A stretch of 64,000 nt of DNA, from NCBI RefSeq assembly GCF_003970675.1, contig NZ_CP034563.1, positions 372,001-436,000 on the forward strand, in the 5' to 3' direction. Made by a program: the position numbers and the translations under genes. Positions 10,762-50,630 of this stretch are shown one piece after another. The stretch's first letter is position 1. Each line of letters starts with the position of its first letter. Origin of the DNA: Flammeovirga pectinis (GTDB taxonomy: Bacteria; Bacteroidota; Bacteroidia; Cytophagales; Flammeovirgaceae). The notes beneath the pieces were generated by a model, which saw nothing but the letters and a program-made list of their open reading frames with translations, had not been told where the DNA came from and did not search any database.

Positions 10762-13674
10762 TTAATACTTTATTATACGGGTTACATGATTTCCGATTTT
10801 TAAAATATAAACACCATCAACCAAACCCTCTAATGAGAAGGATTGATGTTTAACTTCTCGCTGTAATGTCTTACCAAGAAGAGTAATTAATTGAACTACT
10901 TCTTCATTCGGTACATTTTTTAAATAAATGAAATTAGTTGTCGGATTTGGATATACGACAATGTTTATGTCGTCTAGATCACTCACTACATTTGTAATGA
11001 TTTCTTCTTCAGACGCCACTTGATTTGCGCCAATATTCCAATTCCCTGTAATAGTTATTATGTTCCCAAAGTAATCTTCGGTTCCAGCATTATTTATAGC
11101 AATTCCCTTACCAATTAGAGGTGAATTTGCAGCAAGTATATAATCGTTATCAAAGACACTTCCTGGATTAATTAGTAATGGATTGATAATTAAATCGTTA
11201 TCTCCTGTTGGGAAACCAACTATAGCACCAAAATAATTATTATGATTAAAGTCATTTTGCTCTTCTTTGCTATTTGCAATGAATGTTCCTTCAGTTTGAA
11301 TAATATTATTCTTAAACATTACTTGTACACCTTCTCCTATTTGAAAACGTGACGTAATGTTTTCTTTTGTGTAGACTGTGTTATTGTACATAGAAATATT
11401 TTCTACAGAAGTAAGTTCATCCATCCATACAAAATACCCTTCATTATTAATAGACAGGTTATAACGGAAATTTAACGCTGATAATACACCTGATGCTTTT
11501 ACCACTCCACTTTTATTTTCTAGAAGGTAATTATACTGTAATGTTATATTTCTATTCTCATTTTTAAGTAAAAAAGCGTAGCCTTCTTTAGTACCTACAA
11601 TTTCAGATTTCTCAACAATAATGTTTGTTGCCCCATCAATTACTATAGCACCATCTACAGTTTCAATTGCAAGTAAACTACAGCTAGAAATTTTAATATT
11701 ATCAGAATTCATTATCTCTATACCATATTGTTCACTTACAGGAGATGTCTTATTTTTAAAAGACAAGTTACTTACTTGTATATTTGTTGCTCCATCTAAT
11801 TTTAATACAGATAAAAAATTGCTTACTTCTAATGTTGCACTTTCGGTTCCGTAGGTATCAATAATGATTGGGTTTTCTTCTGTTCCTTTTGCAGAAATAA
11901 TAAGTTGACCATCAAAAGTAGTTCCTCCTTTAAATAAAATAGAATCTCCTGCCAAAAGTGTGAGTGCATTTACTCTATCAACTGATTTAAAAGGAGTTGA
12001 AATTGATAAACCATCATTATTATCATTTCCATTATTATCATCTAAATAATATGTTTTACTTTCTGTTCTTTCTACCTCAACCAATTCTTGACCACCAATT
12101 GTTGGGTTAATATCTTTAGGTAAAAGTGATTGCCAATAATCATATACCCCGGCATTTTTTATAATTTCTCCAGCTGATTTTGCAGGAGAGAAATAGTCTA
12201 ATTTATAATCATCTGCTGCAGTACTACCTGGTATTTTTATAAGTGGATCTATAAAGGCATCGTTATCACCATAAGGCATAGCAATTACACTTTTAGCATC
12301 TTTATCTATAGGTGCAGTAGTTGGGTTACCATTAGCATCTTCTTTATAAAAGATATTATGATCAAAATCTACATCTACCTTTTCAAAGTTATTTTCGTAA
12401 CTGTAATTTCTATAAATCAAGTTGGCATTTTTATGAATATGTACAATGTTATTTTTAAACATATTTTCTGTGCCATATTGCAATAAAACATACGTTGTAA
12501 TTCCTTCTCCTACATAAATTGTATTGTTATAAACTTGGGTATTTACAGAACCTTCTGGGTCTAAATTATTCCCCATATAGCCCCCAATCCAAAAGATAAC
12601 ACCTAAATGATTACCTGTTCTCCATCCATCATTTACAGAGATGTTATAACGATAAATTGAATTTTTATTTCCTCCAAGAACTTCTACAAAGCCACCTTCA
12701 TTATCATAACTGTAGTTATATTGAATAGTGATATCTTCATTTCCAATATCTATATGTGCTCCACAAGAATCTTGTTTGCCTCTTGCTGATAAAAACTGAT
12801 TACGTTGGATGAGTACATTTTTGCATCTTAGTGGCCAAATTCCACTTCCTCTACCAATCATTCTCGGGTCTGAAGTATCTCCGGGATGATCAACAATATT
12901 ATCTTCAACAAGTAGGTTTTCCATGTGCATAGGTACAATCCCTGCCCCTCCAATATTATGAATATGGTTATTTCTAATTACAATATTTTTATTCATAGCA
13001 TACTCCGGAGCAACGGTACTCCATCTACCTCCAATTATACCTCTGTAACCAATGTCATAGATTTCGCAATTCTCTATAGTTACCCCATCGATATAAGTTT
13101 CTTTATTTCCATAGGTTGTTATCTTAAAACCGTAACCTTTATAAGCTGGGTCGTTTGCTTCGTCATCTGTTGGGTTGTTAGGATAGATATCATGCATTTT
13201 TAAATTTGAAAACTTAAAAAAATATTTGATTCCATCGGTACTATTACTTAGTGTTACTCCTACTCTTTCTGTTAAAGCATTGTCTTCTAAAGCAGTACCC
13301 TGATCATTTACGAGTTCTAAATCTTTTACTATATATCCTTGTACATTAGATAACGTGATTACGGAAGTATATCCTTCTCCATTTATTTTTGCATGAGCCT
13401 CCCCACCGTATTTACCAATAATGATTGGATTTTCTGAAGTACCAGACCCTTTAGGCTTTAATGTTCCGTAAATTTCAACACCTGCTTTAAAATAAACTGC
13501 ATCCCCCCCATTTAAGGTTAATGTATTTACTTTATTCATTGATTTCCAAGCAGAACTTTCTGATGTTCCATTATTCGTATCATTTCCATTAATTGCATCT
13601 ACATAGTAGTTTGATGCAAACCCCGGTAAAAAAGTCAAGAACCAGAGTAGAGCCACTGTAATTATTTTTTTCAT
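10762..13674 (-). CDS. T9SS-exported protein with two tandem right-handed beta-helix modules
   Basis: This 970-residue secreted protein has a signal peptide (1-20) and two related modules. Each opens with the same signature, YYVDAINGNDTNNG at about residue 23 and YYLDDNNGNDNNDG at about residue 542. Each continues with a strand carrying W/F-K-S-x-x-x-V-N and GDAVYFKAG / GDSILFKGG. Asn-rich coils typical of parallel beta-helices of polysaccharide lyases and some glycosidases follow. The last 75 residues (from about 895) look like a type A T9SS sorting domain (YPNPTTNFIYL … GVYILKIGN), so export to the surface is likely. No catalytic residues can be named safely. Activity on an algal polysaccharide is inferred only from its place beside susCD and agarolytic genes. 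Confidence 0.8.
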   Translation of the reverse strand: MKKIITVALLWFLTFLPGFASNYYVDAINGNDTNNGTSESSAWKSMNKVNTLTLNGGDAVYFKAGVEIYGTLKPKGSGTSENPIIIGKYGGEAHAKINGEGYTSVITLSNVQGYIVKDLELVNDQGTALEDNALTERVGVTLSNSTDGIKYFFKFSNLKMHDIYPNNPTDDEANDPAYKGYGFKITTYGNKETYIDGVTIENCEIYDIGYRGIIGGRWSTVAPEYAMNKNIVIRNNHIHNIGGAGIVPMHMENLLVEDNIVDHPGDTSDPRMIGRGSGIWPLRCKNVLIQRNQFLSARGKQDSCGAHIDIGNEDITIQYNYSYDNEGGFVEVLGGNKNSIYRYNISVNDGWRTGNHLGVIFWIGGYMGNNLDPEGSVNTQVYNNTIYVGEGITTYVLLQYGTENMFKNNIVHIHKNANLIYRNYSYENNFEKVDVDFDHNIFYKEDANGNPTTAPIDKDAKSVIAMPYGDNDAFIDPLIKIPGSTAADDYKLDYFSPAKSAGEIIKNAGVYDYWQSLLPKDINPTIGGQELVEVERTESKTYYLDDNNGNDNNDGLSISTPFKSVDRVNALTLLAGDSILFKGGTTFDGQLIISAKGTEENPIIIDTYGTESATLEVSNFLSVLKLDGATNIQVSNLSFKNKTSPVSEQYGIEIMNSDNIKISSCSLLAIETVDGAIVIDGATNIIVEKSEIVGTKEGYAFLLKNENRNITLQYNYLLENKSGVVKASGVLSALNFRYNLSINNEGYFVWMDELTSVENISMYNNTVYTKENITSRFQIGEGVQVMFKNNIIQTEGTFIANSKEEQNDFNHNNYFGAIVGFPTGDNDLIINPLLINPGSVFDNDYILAANSPLIGKGIAINNAGTEDYFGNIITITGNWNIGANQVASEEEIITNVVSDLDDINIVVYPNPTTNFIYLKNVPNEEVVQLITLLGKTLQREVKHQSFSLEGLVDGVYILKIGNHVTRIIKY

Positions 13675-39947: not shown

Positions 39948-40889
39948 ATGAACCAAGAAAAAATACTGAAGTTTATCAAAAAGAACGATATGCTTAAGAT
40001 ATCTGCTTTAGAAAGACAAGCAGGTTTACCTAGTAACTCTCTCCATAAAGCACTTAATGGTAACTATTCTTTTAAACAAGAATATGTAGAAAGATTAGCG
40101 GATGTCTTAAGTAAGTTTGGTTTGGAGGATGAATCCGATGCTAAAATCATCAGTATTATAAACAACAAAGGTGGAGTTGGTAAAACAACTACAGCTTGTA
40201 ATCTTGGAAAAGCACTCGAACTTAGAGGTAAAAAAGTACTGTTAGTAGACCTTGATCCTCAAGGAAACCTTTCTCAGTACCTTGGATGTACTAACCCTCA
40301 GCCAGAGTTTGTTGATCTTGTTTTAGGAAAAACAGACGATTGGGAAAAAATTCTTCACAAGCATAGCGAAAATCTTCACTTATTACCTTCTACAATTAAT
40401 TTAGATGCTGCTACTCTAGAATTGCAAAAGCAAACAATTGGAGGGTACAAACGCATTAAAAATGTAATTGGACCAATTGCTGAAAACTACGATTTTGTAC
40501 TTATTGATTGTCCTCCTTCTTTAAGTATTCTAACGGCAGGATCGTTGGTGGCATCTACAGATATTATTATTCCTTTAGATGCAGAACCTTTTAGTATGAA
40601 CGGTATTTCGAATATGTTTAATTTAATTAATGATGTTCGAGATTTAAATCCAAACATTCAAATTCTTGGTTTTCTATTTACCTCTATAAAACCTAAAACT
40701 GTTTTGCATAGAGACTTTATGAAAAGTCTACGTGATCAGGTAACAAACTATAATGTTTTTGATACTTTCATTCATGATTCTATAGCAATTGCAGAATCTA
40801 CTGGGGCTCAAAAAGATATTTTCGACTATGCTCCAGATTCTAAAGGAGCAGATGATTACTTAAACTTAGCAATCGAAATACTAGATTAA
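39948..40889 (+). CDS. parA: ParA-type partition ATPase with N-terminal helix-turn-helix (first system)
   Basis: This 313-residue protein starts with a small DNA-binding domain (about 1-58, LERQAGLPSNSLHKALNGNY as HTH), followed by a complete ParA ATPase. The deviant Walker A box NNKGGVGKTT has signature Lys74 and P-loop Lys79. Walker A' is VDLDPQGN (Asp101/Asp103) and Walker B is FVLIDCPPSLS. The N-terminal HTH resembles type Ia ParA proteins of low-copy plasmids such as P1, which repress their own operon. With ParB it positions replicon copies along the nucleoid. parB starts 2 nt after its stop codon. Confidence 0.92.
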   Translation: MNQEKILKFIKKNDMLKISALERQAGLPSNSLHKALNGNYSFKQEYVERLADVLSKFGLEDESDAKIISIINNKGGVGKTTTACNLGKALELRGKKVLLVDLDPQGNLSQYLGCTNPQPEFVDLVLGKTDDWEKILHKHSENLHLLPSTINLDAATLELQKQTIGGYKRIKNVIGPIAENYDFVLIDCPPSLSILTAGSLVASTDIIIPLDAEPFSMNGISNMFNLINDVRDLNPNIQILGFLFTSIKPKTVLHRDFMKSLRDQVTNYNVFDTFIHDSIAIAESTGAQKDIFDYAPDSKGADDYLNLAIEILD

Positions 40890-40891
40890 TT

Positions 40892-41725
40892 ATGGCAAAA
40901 GGTAAGAGTTTTAATTTTCAGATGCCATCAAATACTCAATCTACGATTGGCAAAAGTTTAAAAGCTGAAGTGAGAGATACTATTTCTATTCTTCCGGAGC
41001 TAGAGCATTATATAAGAAAGCTTAAGCCAGAAGAATTTGCTCAGTTAGAACGTTCTGTACAAGAAGAAGGCTGTCATGATCCATTAAAGATTTGGAAAAA
41101 AAATGATGATGAACTTTATATTATAGATGGTCATCATCGTTTTGAGATCTGTAAAAAACATGCTATTGAATTTAAAGTTGAATACAAATACTACGCTTCT
41201 TTAGAAGAAGTAAAAGAGTATATGATTCAGCTACAACTGGGTAGACGAAACTTAAATAGTAACGAAACTTCGTATTATCGAGGTTTACATTATAATATGC
41301 ACAAGTCTACCGAGAATTTAGGTAGAGCAGCAAGTGGTGGGAAATTAGCTCAAAAGCTAGCAGAACTTCATGGAATTGGAGAAAAGACAATCCGAAGAGA
41401 CGCTTCTATTGCTGCTGTTGTTGATGCATTACCAACCATAGAAAGAGTTTTGTATTTAACAGGTGAGGCTTCTTATACAAGAACAAAAATGCTTGAAGCA
41501 GCCAAACAGTTAGATGAAATTTTAGATCTAGTTGCTTTCTTAAAGGGAGATTCGTCCACAAACCAAGAGGTCATTCAACCTAGAGAAAGAGATATAAATT
41601 ATTTAGGCTCTTATATTTCTAAGATAGATTCTCAAGTAAAATCTTGGAATAAAAACCTTGATACTGGCGAAAAGCAAGAGCTTATTTCTTATCTAGAAAG
41701 TGTGCTAAATCAATTAAAAAAATAA
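40892..41725 (+). CDS. parB: ParB-type partition protein (first system)
   Basis: This 277-residue protein has a ParB/Srx N-terminal domain (about 35-125). The segment IIDGHHRFE (Gly80, His81, His82, Arg83) stands where chromosomal ParB has GERR. QLQLGRRNL (115-121) stands where ENxQR-type box II would be expected. The Arg-rich arrangement suggests a nucleotide-binding (CTPase) pocket with unusual residues. A DNA-binding HTH follows (about 150-175, LAELHGIGEKTIRRDASIA) and the C-terminal part probably dimerises. Two copies of a 21-bp palindrome downstream are candidate binding sites. It forms an operon with parA. Confidence 0.9.
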   Translation: MAKGKSFNFQMPSNTQSTIGKSLKAEVRDTISILPELEHYIRKLKPEEFAQLERSVQEEGCHDPLKIWKKNDDELYIIDGHHRFEICKKHAIEFKVEYKYYASLEEVKEYMIQLQLGRRNLNSNETSYYRGLHYNMHKSTENLGRAASGGKLAQKLAELHGIGEKTIRRDASIAAVVDALPTIERVLYLTGEASYTRTKMLEAAKQLDEILDLVAFLKGDSSTNQEVIQPRERDINYLGSYISKIDSQVKSWNKNLDTGEKQELISYLESVLNQLKK

Positions 41726-41745
41726 CGTTCTTACGATATAAATAT

Positions 41746-41766
41746 CGGTGGTCAGCTTGACCACCG
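41746..41766. repeat. candidate parS site, copy 1
   Basis: CGGTGGTCA-GCT-TGACCACCG is a perfect 9-bp inverted repeat with a 3-nt centre. It lies 21 nt downstream of the first parB. A second copy is at 41953-41973; the flanks TAT before and TTC after are also shared. Confidence 0.6.
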
Positions 41767-41952
41767 TTCTTACCTTCCAAATTCAATCAATCTTAAAGTA
41801 GGGTTGTACCGTAAAATCACTTTACTTTTTGTATTACAGTCTGAATTTATCAGCAGAATTATTTTCATTTTTATCAATTACTCTTTGATATAATTATGGA
41901 CTTTTCGTTCCTATACACAGTTCTAAAGGGCCATTACAGAACATTATATTAT

Positions 41953-41973
41953 CGGTGGTCAATCTGACCACTG
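41953..41973. repeat. candidate parS site, copy 2
   Basis: CGGTGGTCA-ATC-TGACCACTG differs from copy 1 only in the centre and in one base of the right arm. It lies 31 nt before the next gene. A half site (TGACCACT) also occurs at 45512-45519 inside the origin region. Confidence 0.6.
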
Positions 41974-42004
41974 TTCATTTTATTAAAATCTATACTTCTT
42001 TAAT

Positions 42005-42793
42005 ATGTCGATTTCTAAAATTGCAGACTATTCATTAATTCTAGTATCATTAATGTATAGCTCTTATGTATCGTTCCTTTTTTTAGCAGAAGTAAGTTCT
42101 GTATATGTTGCTATTTTTATAGCAGTATTTATTGTTGTACTTGGGCATCATTATACATTTCAAACAATAAAGCATTATCAAGAGACAAAATCTGTTTCTC
42201 AGTCAATTCTAATAGCTATTATTTTGATGGGGTTTGTTTTCTATGCAGAATGGAACGGGCAATCTATACATACTTTAGATGTGGCAGATATTCCTACTAC
42301 AGAAAAAATTGATAATCAGATAGATGAAACAATGGAAATTATTCATCAAAATGCAAATAAACGAAACTGGAGAAATGTAGAACAATATAGAACGGCATCC
42401 GAACAACTAGAAACTCTACAACTAGAAAAGGAAAGGTTACTATCTATCATCAGTAAAAAAAGTAAAGATGCAGAACAACTTGCTAACGATTTTAGGTGCT
42501 TCTCCATTTTATTATTTTGTGTAGCATTTATAGCAAGTACGCTAACCAATAAGACAAAAGTTACTAGTACTAAAGAAGTTACAAATGCAGTTACCCCTCT
42601 TCAGAATATAAATACACCTGTTCAATACACATCTGAAGTTCCTGTTGCTACATCAAATAATTTTGAAGAGGAAATAATTCTAAAGATTCAAACTGGGGAA
42701 ATTAAAGACCATAAAGTTTTAATGAAATTACTTCGTTTAAATGTCCGTCAGGCAAATCAGCTTTTAAGTACGTATAAACCTAACTATGTATAG
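42005..42793 (+). CDS. membrane protein with coiled coil, partition/origin region
   Basis: This 262-residue protein has three hydrophobic segments in its first 85 residues. A coiled-coil-like helical stretch follows (about 100-160, EQLETLQLEKERLLSIISKK), with a fourth hydrophobic segment at about 168-180. The Thr/Val-rich linker ends in a small helical domain (about 228-262, DHKVLMKLLRLNVRQANQLLSTYK) that could be a helix-turn-helix. I recognise no family. The stop codon lies inside an iteron copy (42786-42800). Its place between parB1 and the initiator suggests a function tied to this replicon, such as membrane attachment; that is conjecture. Confidence 0.6.
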   Translation: MSISKIADYSLILVSLMYSSYVSFLFLAEVSSVYVAIFIAVFIVVLGHHYTFQTIKHYQETKSVSQSILIAIILMGFVFYAEWNGQSIHTLDVADIPTTEKIDNQIDETMEIIHQNANKRNWRNVEQYRTASEQLETLQLEKERLLSIISKKSKDAEQLANDFRCFSILLFCVAFIASTLTNKTKVTSTKEVTNAVTPLQNINTPVQYTSEVPVATSNNFEEEIILKIQTGEIKDHKVLMKLLRLNVRQANQLLSTYKPNYV

Positions 42794-43585: not shown

Positions 43586-44782
43586 TTATTTCTGATCAAT
43601 AATCCATTTCTTAAGTGTATGTTTATTTGGATAACTTGCTCCATCTCTCATTGCCATTTTTACGTTATTCAACTCTGGCCATATTTTCCAATTTGGATCA
43701 GATTGGTATTTCTTGATGGCAACAGATACAACCTCTGCTGTTAAACCAATCTCATTCAATCTTAAATGAAGTTTGTCTACCTTCTCCTGAAAATCAAATT
43801 CTAAAGAACCTTGAGATGTAGGTCTAGGAGTAGTTGTAGCCTGTTGCATTGGTTGTTCATTAACCGTAACAGGATCAACATCTATTGTTTCTTCTTGCTC
43901 GTTACCACCAACTTCTACATCTGTTTTTAATAACTCTCTTAAAATCTCTTCTCTAGAAAAGCCTAAAGATTGGAGCATCTTCATTTTCTGTTGTAGACTA
44001 TTCTGCTGAGGTTCCTGAGCTGCATTATTTACAGGTTGATTGGCCGTTTGTCCAATTTCTATAGTTTTAGGCTGTTCTTTCTCTTTTTTCTTAAAGAAGA
44101 ACTCTAAGTGCGTACACCTTCTACCTGTTTTTATTAATTCGAGATTAACTTCTAGGTCTGTATTCTCATTAATATCTTTTAAACATTTCTGTAAAATTGA
44201 TCTATTAAAGGCTGCAAAACTTTTGTATGATTTTGAATCTGAAAGACCTAATATAGATTTTAGTTCTTCTACAGATATCTTTCTAGAATTGTATTTACCA
44301 ACACCCTGAGAGAGTAAATCATACATTCTTACTGCATGAGGAGAACGCATATGGCGCACACTAGAATACAGGTATTGTGTATAATTAGAACTTGGCGATA
44401 ATATATTTTTAAAGTTTCCATTAAACTGAAACTTTATAGAAGTCTTGTCTAATTTAATCTTACTAAAAAGTGGAATATACTCTCTATCAAATGTTTTAGA
44501 GTCGTGATCTCCCTCTCCTAGCGTTATTTTTGCACTCGATAAAGCATCACAACCAAAATCTAGTTGCTTTAAATCCTTTCCACCAGGATGTCGACCTAAA
44601 AATTCAGAAACTTTAAATTCGATTTCATCCTCTACCGTTAAATCATTTAATGTAAAGGCAAATAGGAGTAGCTTCTGAGATACTAAGGGAAGGGGTTTCT
44701 TTTGCTTCGCCTTAATAAATCGGTTACTTCTCTTTACTTTATTACTACTTGTTCGAATTTTATTTAAAATGTCCATCGACAA
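43586..44782 (-). CDS. rep: replication initiator protein, Rep_3 (RepB/RepE-like) family
   Basis: This 398-residue protein resembles iteron-binding plasmid initiators with two winged-helix domains. WH1 spans about 30-150 and includes PLVSQKLLLFAFTLNDL. The WH2 region (about 150-235) contains MYDLLSQGV, SVEELKSILGLSDS, SFAAFNRSILQKCLKDINENTDLEVNLELIKTGRRCTHLEF in consecutive pieces, the usual Rep_3 order. A linker rich in Gln/Asn and Pro (about 240-330) and a further helical C-terminal domain of about 65 residues go beyond the usual family length. The gene is transcribed away from the iteron array, which lies directly upstream. It should bind the iterons to open the origin and control copy number. 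Confidence 0.88.
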   Translation of the reverse strand: MSMDILNKIRTSSNKVKRSNRFIKAKQKKPLPLVSQKLLLFAFTLNDLTVEDEIEFKVSEFLGRHPGGKDLKQLDFGCDALSSAKITLGEGDHDSKTFDREYIPLFSKIKLDKTSIKFQFNGNFKNILSPSSNYTQYLYSSVRHMRSPHAVRMYDLLSQGVGKYNSRKISVEELKSILGLSDSKSYKSFAAFNRSILQKCLKDINENTDLEVNLELIKTGRRCTHLEFFFKKKEKEQPKTIEIGQTANQPVNNAAQEPQQNSLQQKMKMLQSLGFSREEILRELLKTDVEVGGNEQEETIDVDPVTVNEQPMQQATTTPRPTSQGSLEFDFQEKVDKLHLRLNEIGLTAEVVSVAIKKYQSDPNWKIWPELNNVKMAMRDGASYPNKHTLKKWIIDQK

Positions 44783-44813: not shown

Positions 44814-46104
44814 ATGTATAGCTTTACCGTATTAAGCAGTCACTATATCGGTATATCTATACATAAATACAAATAATTGACGGGTAATTTGTACATATTT
44901 TCATTTTTGTACGGTACATCTATACATATTTAAGAACCTAGATACATTAAAACGAATCATTTTACTCAATTATTAAAACTTATGGTATATCTATACATCT
45001 ATCTCTTAAACTCTCCTATTATACGGTATATCTATACATAATAAGCCAAAATGATACAGATTTGAGTAATCATGTACCTTATTTATAAAAGATAGTTGAC
45101 TTTAAATGTATCAAAATACTTCTTATATGCTTTAAAGATATGATAAGTAGTAAAATTGACTAAATTATACGGGTAATCTATACATATTAATAGAAAGTGG
45201 TACAGATTTAAAGTTTGAGAAGAATAAAATTGTCTTTAGATGTATAGATATACCATATCTGTAAGTATTTACTATTGAAATTACGGTACAACTATACATA
45301 GATAGAGATTATGGTACATAAAAAAGTATGAAAAAGAGTATTTTACTACTGATATTAGGAATTTTGATACATAATTAAACCACTTAATACTTAGTTCAGT
45401 CAATTAATACATATAAATGCCAGTTTATGTAGTCACTCTTACTGTTTGATTTGATCAGAAATTCTATATTTCTACTTAAAAAAGTAGTATTCTTTTTCTT
45501 TTAGCCTCTAATGACCACTAATTCGCTTAAATGTATGTCATTTCCATTCATATAAAACCATTAAAGTACATTCTATGGTATATCTATACATAAATACACG
45601 GTAAAACTATACATATAGGCTGTTTTAGATACATAAAAGGGTAATCTATAGATATGCTCAGAATTGTCATACATAGCTTATCGGTACATCTATACATCTT
45701 AGTATGGTACATCTATACATCTATCTTCGGGGGATCTATACATCTACTTAGTACTTTATTATATGATTATCAGTAAGTTATGGCGCCCTATAATAAGAAC
45801 AATATAAATAACTATATATAAGGAACCCTCATAATTGAGACAATTTTATATTTAAATTTTTAATTATTTTTTCTTTTATACATAAAGTATGTATAGATAT
45901 ACCTTAGTTTATTTCCAATTAGAAGAATGTATACGGTATATCTATACATAATATAATAATTTAGAGCAGTATTGCGCGGTAAGACCATACATATATAGTA
46001 ATTATTGAACATCTATATACGGTATATCTATACAGATTAGCTTATTCTATTACATAAGTATCTTTAGAGATGCGCAGTAATTTAAAAAAATGTATAGTTG
46101 TACC
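44814..46104. repeat. iteron array, 15-bp core GGTAYATCTATACAT
   Basis: Forward copies (GGTATATCTATACAT or close variants) start at 44850, 44913, 44984, 45025, 45171, 45285, 45577, 45600, 45639, 45683, 45706, 45729, 45935, 45978 and 46021. Reverse copies (ATGTATAGATATACC or variants) start at 44814, 45240, 45889 and 46090. Spacing is irregular. The right half CTATACAT is best conserved, while the middle of the left half varies (TATAT, TACAT, TACAA, TAAAA). A weaker copy is at 44881. Confidence 0.88.
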
Positions 46105-46217: not shown

Positions 46218-46237
46218 TAATATAATTAACCGAAGTG

Positions 46238-47068
46238 ATGATCGGAGACAACATAGTAAAACTTCGTAAGAAAAATAATATGCAACAGAAGGAGTTAGCT
46301 CAGCTAATTGACATTTCTGTGCAAGGTTTAATAAAATGGGAGAAAGGAAAAGTAGAAATTCCTTACTCTGGTTTATCTAAAATAGCTGACGTATTCAAAG
46401 TTCCCCTAGATTACATCGTTAAAGGAGCACCTTCTAAGGTCATTTCTTTAATTAATTCTAAAGGTGGTAATACAAAATCCTCATTATTGCGTCAAATAGC
46501 TGTTGGTATTGTTACAGAACACCCTGAAATAAAGGTTTTATGTATTGATACCGACCCTCAGCAAACTTTAGTAATGTATTCTGAGAACGGATTACATGAA
46601 AACATAAAAGTAATTGGGTTTGATTCCAATTCTATTGCCGTTTCTGAGAAATATAGAAAGCTAATTGAGGAAAGTCAGTACAAGTATGACTACATATTGG
46701 TAGATACTGCAGGTTATGTAGCCGTTACAGACCTACTTACAAGTATTATCGCTAATTCTGATGTAGTTGTTCCGATAACATTGAACGAAACCGCTCTAGG
46801 GCCTACAATATCGAGTATTTCTAACATTGCAGATGTAAGAGACTCTTTAGATTTACCAACTAAGATAATTGGTATTAGAAATAGAGTGAATAGAACGGTG
46901 AAAGAATCTAAAATGCCATTCGAATTAGATGGTTATATGGGATTAAAATTGATGGATTCGTTCTTACCAGATGCTATTCAGTACCAAAGAGATACTAATT
47001 TTAGCAATACTTCAATCACTAAAGAAGTGAAGGAGATAGTAAACGAATTACTTCCTATTATTGATTAA
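46238..47068 (+). CDS. parA: ParA-type ATPase with N-terminal XRE-type HTH (second system)
   Basis: I choose the ATG at 46238 (a GTG three bases earlier is possible), giving 276 residues. The first 60 residues are a Cro/C1-type HTH (IVKLRKKNNMQQKELAQLIDISVQGLIKWEKGK). The ATPase domain has a divergent Walker A box, SKGGNTKSS, that keeps both lysines (Lys75 and Lys80 from this start) but lacks the usual Gly before the second. Walker A' is IDTDPQQ and Walker B is YILVDTAGYV. The HTH type differs from that of the first ParA, so the two systems are not simple duplicates. parB2 begins 38 nt downstream. An origin-proximal promoter precedes it. Confidence 0.88.
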   Translation: MIGDNIVKLRKKNNMQQKELAQLIDISVQGLIKWEKGKVEIPYSGLSKIADVFKVPLDYIVKGAPSKVISLINSKGGNTKSSLLRQIAVGIVTEHPEIKVLCIDTDPQQTLVMYSENGLHENIKVIGFDSNSIAVSEKYRKLIEESQYKYDYILVDTAGYVAVTDLLTSIIANSDVVVPITLNETALGPTISSISNIADVRDSLDLPTKIIGIRNRVNRTVKESKMPFELDGYMGLKLMDSFLPDAIQYQRDTNFSNTSITKEVKEIVNELLPIID

Positions 47069-47106: not shown

Positions 47107-48480
47107 ATGCTGAACCTAGATAAGTTTAAACAAAAAGAGGAGAAAAGGATAAAAGAGGGCAAAACTACCCTTCGTGAAAAGAAATCACAGGAAAAATTAA
47201 CGCAAATTGATTATAAATCTCCGGGTGCTTTTCATATCGAACCAGAATTTAGAGAACTTATTCGTAAACAAAACGACGATGAGGCGGCTAATTTTGAGGT
47301 TTCAATTAAAGAAGAAGGTGTTAGAGAGCCAATCTTGTATTGGACGCATACTTTAAGAGATAAATCAGGTGCTAGGGTTGTACACACTGTTGTTGACGGT
47401 CACCATAGATGTGAAGCAGCAATTAAGTTGAATTTAGATTTCATTCCTTCTAAAGAGATGAAATTTGAATCTTACAATGATGTACGTATTTGGATGCTTC
47501 GTAATCAATTAGGAAGAAGAAATATTGGTGATGCAGAAAAAATCAGAATTGCTTTACAGTTAACTGAATTTTTAAGCATAGAAGCTAAAGAACGTAAAAA
47601 GAAACAAGTTGAGGCCTTTAATAAAGGAGCTGCTGACAAAACAACAACTACCCCAAAGAAAGCTGAAAAAGAAGTTGTTTCTGTGGAACAACAAGATATA
47701 AATGCTTTTAAAAGTGATTTAAATATAGGTGCTTCAGGAAAAATTAATAGGGCAGAAGAAGCTGCTAAGATTGCTGGAGTATCTACTAAGAATGTCACTA
47801 AAATGAAGAAAGTGATTGAAAAGGGGTCAAATGATCTACTTTCATCTGTAATGGATGGTGTCACTTCAATTCATAAAGCATGGTCTGATATTAGAAATAA
47901 AGAAAAGGAAGACAAAAGTGTTATTTCTAAGTCTAAAAAAGTAGTCGACAAAGAACTTACGCCTCGTCAGATTCAATTATTATTAAATAATAAGGAGTCT
48001 ATATCAACTATTAGTCGTGTTGCTTTAGCATTTCGTCATCCAGACTTAGAATTTGATACTTTAAACCTAACAGGACTTCGTTATACACACTTTAATGATT
48101 TTTCTGCAAGATATATTGAGCAGAATCAGCAGGTACGCCAGAGTAAGAATATAGACGTTGTACAGTTAGTTAAATTGAATGAGAAAGAATATGCTCCTGC
48201 TATAGTTGGGTACCAAATTTTTTCTACAATTGCAGACTTAGAGAACCTTCATTCTTTAGAGGAGTTATCGCGCTTCTGTCATAAGTTTTATGTTGTTGTA
48301 CATGATAAATTACAAGAAGACGCAGTTCTTCAGGTACAAAAACAAAACCTTACAATAGGAGTATTAAGCATTACTGCTGATAAAACCATAAAGAGTATTC
48401 ATGAAAGCCATTACAATATGGTAGAAGAGCATCAGGAGTTACAAATAATGCGAGAAAGCTTCACTAGAATGAGCAAATAA
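47107..48480 (+). CDS. parB: ParB-type partition protein with long C-terminal extension (second system)
   Basis: This 457-residue protein has a basic N-terminal tail and a ParB-like domain (about 40-145). VVDGHHRCE (Gly98-Arg101) and NQLGRRNI (133-140) are the same unusual boxes as in the first ParB. A Lys/Thr-rich linker (about 165-195) leads to an HTH-like helix set (RAEEAAKIAGVSTKNVTKMKKV, about 217-240). The last 170 residues form an extra domain of unknown type, making the protein much longer than usual ParB. A clear terminator follows. Confidence 0.85.
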   Translation: MLNLDKFKQKEEKRIKEGKTTLREKKSQEKLTQIDYKSPGAFHIEPEFRELIRKQNDDEAANFEVSIKEEGVREPILYWTHTLRDKSGARVVHTVVDGHHRCEAAIKLNLDFIPSKEMKFESYNDVRIWMLRNQLGRRNIGDAEKIRIALQLTEFLSIEAKERKKKQVEAFNKGAADKTTTTPKKAEKEVVSVEQQDINAFKSDLNIGASGKINRAEEAAKIAGVSTKNVTKMKKVIEKGSNDLLSSVMDGVTSIHKAWSDIRNKEKEDKSVISKSKKVVDKELTPRQIQLLLNNKESISTISRVALAFRHPDLEFDTLNLTGLRYTHFNDFSARYIEQNQQVRQSKNIDVVQLVKLNEKEYAPAIVGYQIFSTIADLENLHSLEELSRFCHKFYVVVHDKLQEDAVLQVQKQNLTIGVLSITADKTIKSIHESHYNMVEEHQELQIMRESFTRMSK

Positions 48481-49249: not shown

Positions 49250-50062
49250 ATGAAATTATTGTTGAGAAAATTTCTAAACTTAGTAAAATATTTTACAATT
49301 TTAAGTTGTACTATAATTATAATATCTATTGGTTTTCTTTCTTTTAGAGAGCTTTTTCATACCAATAAGGGGCAAAGTGTTTCACATGGAACACGTTTTA
49401 ATGGTACTTTAGAGAGAGGATGGCTATTACCATATAGAGGAGAAAATTATGGTAGTTTTAGTGGGATAAGTTATTATTTAATGGATAATGCTTATGTAAA
49501 TAATAAGGTTTCCAGAAGTGTTTTAGATAGTTATGAATCTTTGAATAATACAATTTCAAATGATTGTTTCTATTATTATATGGAATGTAGTGATCATTCT
49601 GGAGGAAACCTATACCTACATAGAAGTCATGAAAATGGTTTAAGTATTGATTTCATGATTCCAAAACAACAAGAGGGTAAACCTTATACATTTTTAGATC
49701 ATTGGGGTCTTTTCCATTATTTTTTAGAAACAGATTATTTAGGCAATTATAAACAGAGGTATTCCCTTTTAAATTTTTTAAACCCTTTACTATCAAAAAT
49801 TATTGGAAAGGTATTTATACCAAGTAATATATCTAATGATTTTAGAAAAGTAGCAGATCATATATTAGCTCTTGATATTGCTTGTAAGAAAAATGGAATT
49901 AGTATTAAGCAAGTTATTATAAGGATTGAATTTAAAGAGAAGATATTTTCTACTCCGTCAGGACAAAAATTATTAAGTAGGGGAGTTTATTTTGCAAAAA
50001 AATTACCTCCTGAAGTAAATGAAATGCATGATGAACATTATCATATAGATTTTAATATTTAA
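49250..50062 (+). CDS. MepA/M74-like LAS metallopeptidase, membrane-anchored
   Basis: This 270-residue protein has one N-terminal hydrophobic helix (about 11-32). A LAS-type zinc site is visible: His127 and Asp134 in RSHENGLSIDF, and the terminal HDEHYHIDF (His263 and His265). The spacing H-x6-D plus H-x-H matches penicillin-insensitive murein endopeptidase (MepA) and related M15 enzymes. Sequence outside these motifs is divergent. It probably acts on periplasmic peptidoglycan and follows another LAS peptidase, which is notable next to a partition locus. Confidence 0.7.
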   Translation: MKLLLRKFLNLVKYFTILSCTIIIISIGFLSFRELFHTNKGQSVSHGTRFNGTLERGWLLPYRGENYGSFSGISYYLMDNAYVNNKVSRSVLDSYESLNNTISNDCFYYYMECSDHSGGNLYLHRSHENGLSIDFMIPKQQEGKPYTFLDHWGLFHYFLETDYLGNYKQRYSLLNFLNPLLSKIIGKVFIPSNISNDFRKVADHILALDIACKKNGISIKQVIIRIEFKEKIFSTPSGQKLLSRGVYFAKKLPPEVNEMHDEHYHIDFNI

Positions 50063-50339: not shown

Positions 50340-50371
50340 CGGTTTTGGCAATTTTGCCAAAACCGAAAAAA
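50334..50371. repeat. 17-bp perfect inverted repeat, hairpin A
   Basis: The arms at 50334-50350 and 50355-50371 pair perfectly around the loop ATTT. The core TTTTGGCA-ATTT-TGCCAAAA is shared with hairpin B at 50593-50630. Confidence 0.75.
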
Positions 50372-50592: not shown

Positions 50593-50630
50593 GAAAACCG
50601 ATTTTGGCAATTTTGCCAAAATCGGTTTTC
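50593..50630. repeat. 17-bp perfect inverted repeat, hairpin B
   Basis: The arms at 50593-50609 and 50614-50630 pair perfectly around ATTT. Relative to hairpin A the pair next to the core changes from G-C to A-T on both arms together, so the structure is kept. A short T-rich stretch follows. Confidence 0.75.

Follow-up and report, generated by a model that had tools for sequence, protein, structure and literature searches.

Plasmids F and P1 carry their centromeres (sopC and parS, respectively) downstream of the parAB operon, and their ParA proteins have an N-terminal extension. The F centromere is a tandem array, and the P1 centromere is a composite site. The locus described here resembles both in that its candidate centromere, parS1, lies downstream of parAB and its ParA1 has an N-terminal extension, but it differs from them in that parS1 consists of two single palindromes and relatives often carry an intragenic one.

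The locus also resembles the chromosomal ParB/parS and Noc/NBS systems, which, in the excerpted text of PMC7383237, likewise combine a palindrome, a helix-turn-helix (HTH) recognition helix (presumed in ParB1) with few specificity residues and the ParB N-domain fold. The canonical parS (TGTTTCAC-GTGAAACA) has no 3-bp centre and other half-site bases than parS1, and the specificity residues proposed here for the ParB1 family are suggested by natural covariation rather than by mutagenesis. Two HTH-ParB systems on one replicon have been described for Streptomyces SCP1 (PMC13245405). According to excerpts of that paper, each SCP1 system has its own palindromes in few copies around its own operon, as here, and the inverted repeats are odd-length (13 and 19 bp), as is parS1 (21 bp); SCP1, however, has three identical copies per system against two for ParB1, is a linear plasmid of an actinomycete, an unrelated host, and had its ParB binding and CTP use measured, whereas both are predicted here.

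ParA, ParB and RepA homologues are reported on chromosome II of Flammeovirga in PMC8653839, the excerpted text of which holds no parS sequence and no mention of a palindrome or iteron. In open-licence PMC text, including excerpts of PMC8653839, PMC13342612 and PMC10645730, we recognised no parS sequence for Bacteroidota second chromosomes, and no published description of the parS of the ParB1 family was recognised in open-licence PMC text. ParABS with palindromic parS, odd-length sites and dual systems are already known; new, as far as this literature shows, are the sites reported here, a family-wide palindrome with a 3-base centre (N3) in Cytophagales and a natural helix/half-site pattern.

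The palindrome pair and its gene neighbourhood

The window, that is, the whole 64-kb stretch of DNA analysed, spans positions 372001-436000 of C2, a contig of 1.41 Mb, in a genome of 6,680,108 bases (6.68 Mb) on 3 contigs. Along the window, the order is parA1, parB1, the two sites, a third gene, a Rep_3 initiator gene, iteron-like repeats, parA2 and parB2. The parA1 gene (39948..40889, + strand) encodes a ParA-type ATPase (AAA_31, 1.6e-51), the ATPase domain of which begins at residue 66, after the N-terminal extension. The parB1 gene (40892..41725, + strand) starts 2 nt after parA1, a ParA-type ATPase gene directly upstream being expected of ParABS, and encodes a predicted centromere-binding protein with a modelled ParB-fold N domain; its presumed recognition helix begins with GEKTIRRDA (residues 163-171).

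The first-pass annotation had described two 21-bp palindromes 207 nt apart, right after the first parB, with constant arms and a varying centre, and a pattern search confirmed this description. Site 1 (41746-41766, no strand assigned) is a perfect palindrome, CGGTGGTCA-gct-TGACCACCG, within a conserved block at 41743-41769, and begins 20 nt past the parB1 stop codon. Site 2 (41953-41973, no strand assigned), 207 nt further on from start to start and within a conserved block at 41950-41978, reads CGGTGGTCA-atc-TGACCACTG and departs from the pattern CGGTGGTCA-N3-TGACCACCG by a single mismatch, a T replacing C in the right arm. The pattern did not match once in 100 dinucleotide-shuffled versions of the 64-kb window. 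A genome-wide search, which the same annotation had called for with enrichment only at this locus in view, placed both copies beside parB1; no third copy was found in the 6,680,108-base genome at up to 3 mismatches, and the reversed-pattern control gave 0. Neither site was among the window matches to the 16-bp canonical chromosomal parS (TGTTYCACGTGRAACA) at up to 2 mismatches.

A half-site, TGACCACT, had also been noted at 45512-45519. The string is present, but it is not conserved in the sister species: it is absent from the corresponding 18-kb region (L042), where the only TGACCAC/GTGGTCA strings are the two palindromes. Because TGACCAC also occurs at window position 12089, far from the sites, and the 45512 copy is missing in L042, we gave this half-site no weight.

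The third gene (42005..42793, + strand) encodes a predicted membrane protein with four hydrophobic segments on a simple scale, and is 35-43% identical to genes that follow parAB in six other Flammeovirga loci. Profile searches with it returned nothing above a curated family cutoff, and the one PHROG match was weak (E 0.017). A membrane protein linked to a partition operon seems unusual. Between the sites lies a 22-bp block (41869..41890, no strand assigned) that is identical in the sister species and is possibly part of the third-gene promoter. Further along, the Rep_3 replication initiator gene (43586..44782, - strand; Rep3_N 3.5e-18) is followed by the neighbouring second partition system, composed of parA2 (46235..47068, + strand) and parB2 (47107..48480, + strand), with weak profile matches to ParB-like proteins and a tblastn match to ParB1.

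Conservation in a sister species and distribution within Flammeovirga

In F. kamogawensis (G005), ParB1 is 94% identical to that of the window and both palindromes are present with unchanged spacing. The two 27-bp site blocks were identical in 26/27 and 27/27 columns (53/54), compared to 144/226 in the remaining intergenic region (Fisher, 1.4e-8), and even the odd T in the right arm of site 2 is common to both species. As ParB1 is 94% and the sites are 53/54 identical while the flanks have drifted, continued selection is indicated. ParB1 at >90% identity together with its site occurs only in the window genome (G000) and G005, 2 of the 9 Flammeovirga genomes, so ParABS1 is probably, by its distribution, an accessory system beside a genus-wide ParAB2.

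The second partition system and canonical-type sites

Two copies of a ParB2-linked palindrome, TTTTGGCAA-tt-TTGCCAAAA, lie at 50343..50362 and 50602..50621 (no strand assigned) and are referred to as candidate parS2. The corresponding pattern, TTTTGGYAA-N2-TTRCCAAAA (TTTTGGYAANNTTRCCAAAA), had at least 2 perfect copies in 9/9 Flammeovirga genomes, with every perfect match on the contig that also bears parB2. When up to 1 mismatch was allowed, G000 and G005 had six matches, all on C2 and none on C1, of which the four further ones carried one mismatch. One-mismatch matches were also present on other contigs of G008, G009 and G010, four in all, a number similar to the five found in the 9 genomes with the reversed control. 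Because it is present in 9/9 genomes and lies on the parB2-bearing contig, the ParB2 palindrome is the more likely genus-wide, ancestral chromosome II centromere, a better candidate for that role than parS1. Candidate parS2 perhaps includes distributed sites.

Six Flammeovirga genomes had intergenic strings of the canonical parS type, with one mismatch to TGTTYCACGTGRAACA, on the contig that bears parB2, at a distance of about 8-44 kb from that gene; in a seventh genome such a string was on a short contig (positions: L172 9026, L173 8936, L174 9384, L177 10110, L175 5273, L180 5580 and L046 539). The reversed control gave 5 places in the 9 genomes, and on C2 of the window species and F. kamogawensis no intergenic canonical-type parS was found. 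Through such strings, the ParB of the main chromosome could act on chromosome II. In the window, a string near canonical parS (TGTTTCACATGGAACA, 49378-49393) lies within an ORF (49250-50062) and is probably a coding coincidence, since the homologues of this ORF in G006 and G010 (52-53% identical) carry a similar string where they encode the same KG(Q/E)SVS(H/R)GT stretch.

Fold and presumed DNA-binding part of ParB1

Several properties of ParB1 count against assigning it to a ParB/parS system. Its score against Pfam ParB_N was 14.2 bits, below the cutoff of 26.3; no PDB chain matched the ParB1 family profile at E 0.01; and the window ParB1 sits on a long branch (2.2) of the family tree. Using an AlphaFold2 model built from 51 sequences (mean pLDDT 85), Foldseek matched ParB, Noc and KorB structures (E 3.2e-6), but the whole-chain TM-scores to ParB-family structures were low, 0.22-0.44 by query length, which also counts against the assignment. 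Residues 18-119, the N domain, aligned to Caulobacter ParB with Z 11.0 and an rmsd of 2.2 over 96 residues, and D79, G80, H81 and R83 together with Q115, G117, R119 and N120, located in this ParB/CTPase-type domain, were invariant in the 51 sequences. On the model, the N domain of ParB1 has the ParB fold. In the presumed HTH domain, helices were modelled at 152-160 and 164-179, and residues 126-229 gave a middling score against P1 ParB-DNA (Z 4.4). No ParB1 relatives in viral contigs were confirmed among 10 candidate stretches.

Palindromes at ParB-family genes of related genomes

GTGGTCA-N3-TGACCAC was found in 10 of 390 genomes of the order. At least two copies were present in G000, G005, G016 and G108, all of them inside a ParB-family gene or no more than about 3 kb from one, and the single copy of G378 lay inside such a gene. 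The other five single-copy genomes had no ParB-family gene within the 2.4-3.0 kb of sequence examined; as the reversed pattern gave 7 places in 6 of the 390 genomes, these five stray copies are at chance level. Persicobacter plasmids (L063 and L072) carry GAGTGGTCA palindromes within and just after parB. The helix GEKTIRRD occurs together with the arms (A/G)TGGTCA in the window, the sister locus L042, L055, L063 and L072, and a further locus with this helix, L105, has the close arm variant ATGG(T/A)CA.

Beyond these arms, CA-N3-TG palindromes were counted in two locus sets. The first contained 41 loci, including near relatives, and its zone comprised the 242 kb lying no more than 2.5 kb from a ParB-family hit. 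In this zone there were 50 such palindromes, compared to 38 in the other 693 kb. Centres of 4, 2 and 8 bases were in excess as well, with 30, 12 and 14 palindromes in the zone (0.124 vs 0.037, 0.050 vs 0.027 and 0.058 vs 0.032 per kb, respectively); part of the N4 excess came from ParB2 palindromes read in a different register and from distant relatives that have N4 sites. None of these three excesses recurred in the second set, which came from a separate scan: from the best 80 of 147 relatives, 22 were dropped for being at least 70% identical to another, leaving 58 loci with <70% ParB identity. With the zone drawn from 100 nt before to 400 nt after parB, CA-N3-TG palindromes were located at parB in 35 of these 58 loci, and numbered 54 in 80.5 kb at parB against 30 in the remaining 381.6 kb. 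Palindromes with any other centre length (0, 1, 2, 4, 5, 6, 7 or 8 bases) numbered 1-3 at parB. The 23 of the 58 loci without a CA-N3-TG palindrome at parB count against reading the pair as parS1.

Many of the N3 palindromes were intragenic. In 57 parB ORFs (the second set minus L084, and thus also from the best 80 of 147), we found 36 N3 palindromes distributed over 26 ORFs, whereas 100 synonymous-codon shuffles of the same ORFs averaged 3.9 and never exceeded 9, indicating that the palindromes are not dictated by the encoded protein alone. The centres of 34 of the 36 were at codons 143-201 of parB. Some distant ParB relatives have a 4-base centre: AAGTGACA-N4-TGTCACTT occurs three times in L058 (8786-9072), and AAAGTGCA-aatt-TGCACTTT occurs in L053 (9191) and L054 (8964), so centre length may vary between subfamilies.

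Association between the presumed recognition helix and the half-site

To relate helix residues to half-site bases, 124 entries were reduced to 121 by removing 3 outside 240-360 aa, to 80 by removing 41 at 70% identity, to 70 by removing 10 without a recognisable helix, and to 50 by removing 20 without a near or repeated N3 site. That 20 of these 70 ParB ORFs, all non-redundant and with a recognisable helix, were siteless counts against the parS1 reading; two of the 20, L056 and L061, were scored siteless by rule, though repeated sites occur further upstream. Two doubtful site picks were kept, L060 with an AT-rich site and L151 with a better-fitting site at codon 160.

The 50 loci carry a helix of the type xxxTIxRD, in which the variable position is 168 and the residue before the conserved T is 165 (ParB1 numbering). 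With R168, base -6 was T in 11/12 loci, and with K168 it was A or G in 22/23. With K165, base -4 was G in at least one half-site in 28/29 loci and in both half-sites in 27; it was G in 8/8 with R165, C in 4/5 with A165 and C in 2/2 with N165. The window matches this pattern, having R168 with T at -6 and K165 with G at -4. Among pairs of loci at most 45% identical, which partly removes kinship, a shared residue 168 went with a shared base -6 in 148/207 pairs, vs 197/744 otherwise, and a shared residue 165 with a shared base -4 in 294/309, vs 273/642; each value was reached in 0/300 permutations. The correspondence is not one-to-one, as residue 168 is also associated with -7 and -5, 165 with -5 and 164 with -4 (0/300 each). 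On the maximum-likelihood tree, R168 requires 9 gains or losses, at least 6 of them forced by well-supported branches; between sister groups, for example, L010 has R and GTGGACA, and L006 and L007 have K with GGGGACA and AGGGACA. These covariations suggest that the motif evolves together with the part of ParB expected to read it and, at the sequence level, form an unusually clear natural recognition pattern among the relatives.

Interpretation and alternative explanations

On the second chromosome (1.41 Mb) of a Flammeovirga species, the two palindromes very probably form parS1, the centromere used by the ParA1-ParB1 system. The candidate parS proposed in the first-pass annotation is well supported by comparison, through sister-species conservation, the presence of the arms in other genera at ParB-family genes with an identical GEKTIRRD helix, the family-wide N3 enrichment at parB and the helix/half-site association, all computed directly, as were the sites themselves, their uniqueness and the ParB fold of the N domain. 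By analogy with the ParB family, each 21-bp site would be occupied by a dimer of ParB1, one helix-turn-helix contacting each half-site; GTGGTCA would be read by the helix GEKTIRRDA and the 3-bp centre left unread. Once loaded at parS1, ParB1 would act as other ParB CTPases do, clamping and sliding with CTP, and the ParB1-parS1 complex would be moved by ParA1, which would thereby segregate the replicon.

Both palindromes would fold as strong RNA hairpins (-14.8 and -12.6 kcal/mol), and site 1 is only 20 nt beyond the parB1 stop, as factor-independent transcription terminators might be. Of the two, however, only site 2 was flagged on the + strand in a terminator consensus scan; site 1, which is followed by TTCTTACC, was flagged on the minus strand alone and not on the strand where parB1 would need it. 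The T-rich stretch after site 2 (TTCATTTT) has been lost in the sister species (TTCATATC) with the palindrome kept, the arm sequence rather than pairing alone is conserved, and palindromes of the same class in relatives lie inside parB, mostly at codons 143-201, where termination would cut the gene. Terminators are therefore scarcely credible as the whole explanation, though the hairpin folding and the scan match at site 2 leave room for what may be a side role in transcription. It is also very unlikely that the sites are operators only, through which ParB1 or another dimeric repressor controls a third-gene promoter between them. Such control would fit the conserved 22-bp stretch that lies ahead of the third gene, flanked by both sites, but in the other Flammeovirga loci for which both a third gene and sites were located (L043, L045, L047, L051 and L052) the sites of related ParBs lie after the third gene, and other genera often carry the site inside parB, so that the constant partner is parB. 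Autoregulation on top of a centromere role is possible.

A further reading, which we consider unlikely, is that ParAB1 arrived with a plasmid and its sites are now unused remnants, ParAB2 segregating the chromosome. The presence of ParB1 (>90% identity) in only 2/9 genomes of the genus, against 9/9 for the ParB2 palindromes, would agree with this, as would SCP1, where, in the excerpted text of PMC13245405, one of the two systems alone is crucial under laboratory conditions. What speaks against disuse is that ParB1 remained 94% identical and the sites 53/54 identical across two species despite drifted flanking DNA.

Taking parS1 as a centromere, we lean, with some reserve, towards a joint reading of the whole comparison. 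The sites would be members of a broad and so far undescribed centromere family of Cytophagales plasmids and chromids (CA-N3-TG, often inside parB), in which few helix residues set the half-site. The putative code would pair 168 with -6 (R with T, K with A/G) and 165 with -4 (K/R with G, A/N with C); by moving through it, replicons that share a cell would avoid incompatibility, and the origin of one Flammeovirga second chromosome would carry two partition systems with separate palindromes. The pair offers a concrete, testable candidate centromere for a Bacteroidota second chromosome, and the relatives represent a natural experiment in the change of ParB DNA specificity: with fifty diverged ParBs that have identifiable sites, the predicted residue-to-base rules are directly testable. 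Such rules could explain how many related plasmids coexist in a cell, for example in Persicobacter, with 28 plasmid records showing a match.

A third related parAB, again with the third gene and accompanied by two AAGGTACCA-N3 palindromes, is located on C1 of the window genome at about 4.305 Mb (L051, 7478-9480). In F. kamogawensis, the close relative of this parAB occupies a replicon of its own (640 kb), and the position of the parAB on the main chromosome in the window species thus suggests replicon integration or fusion.
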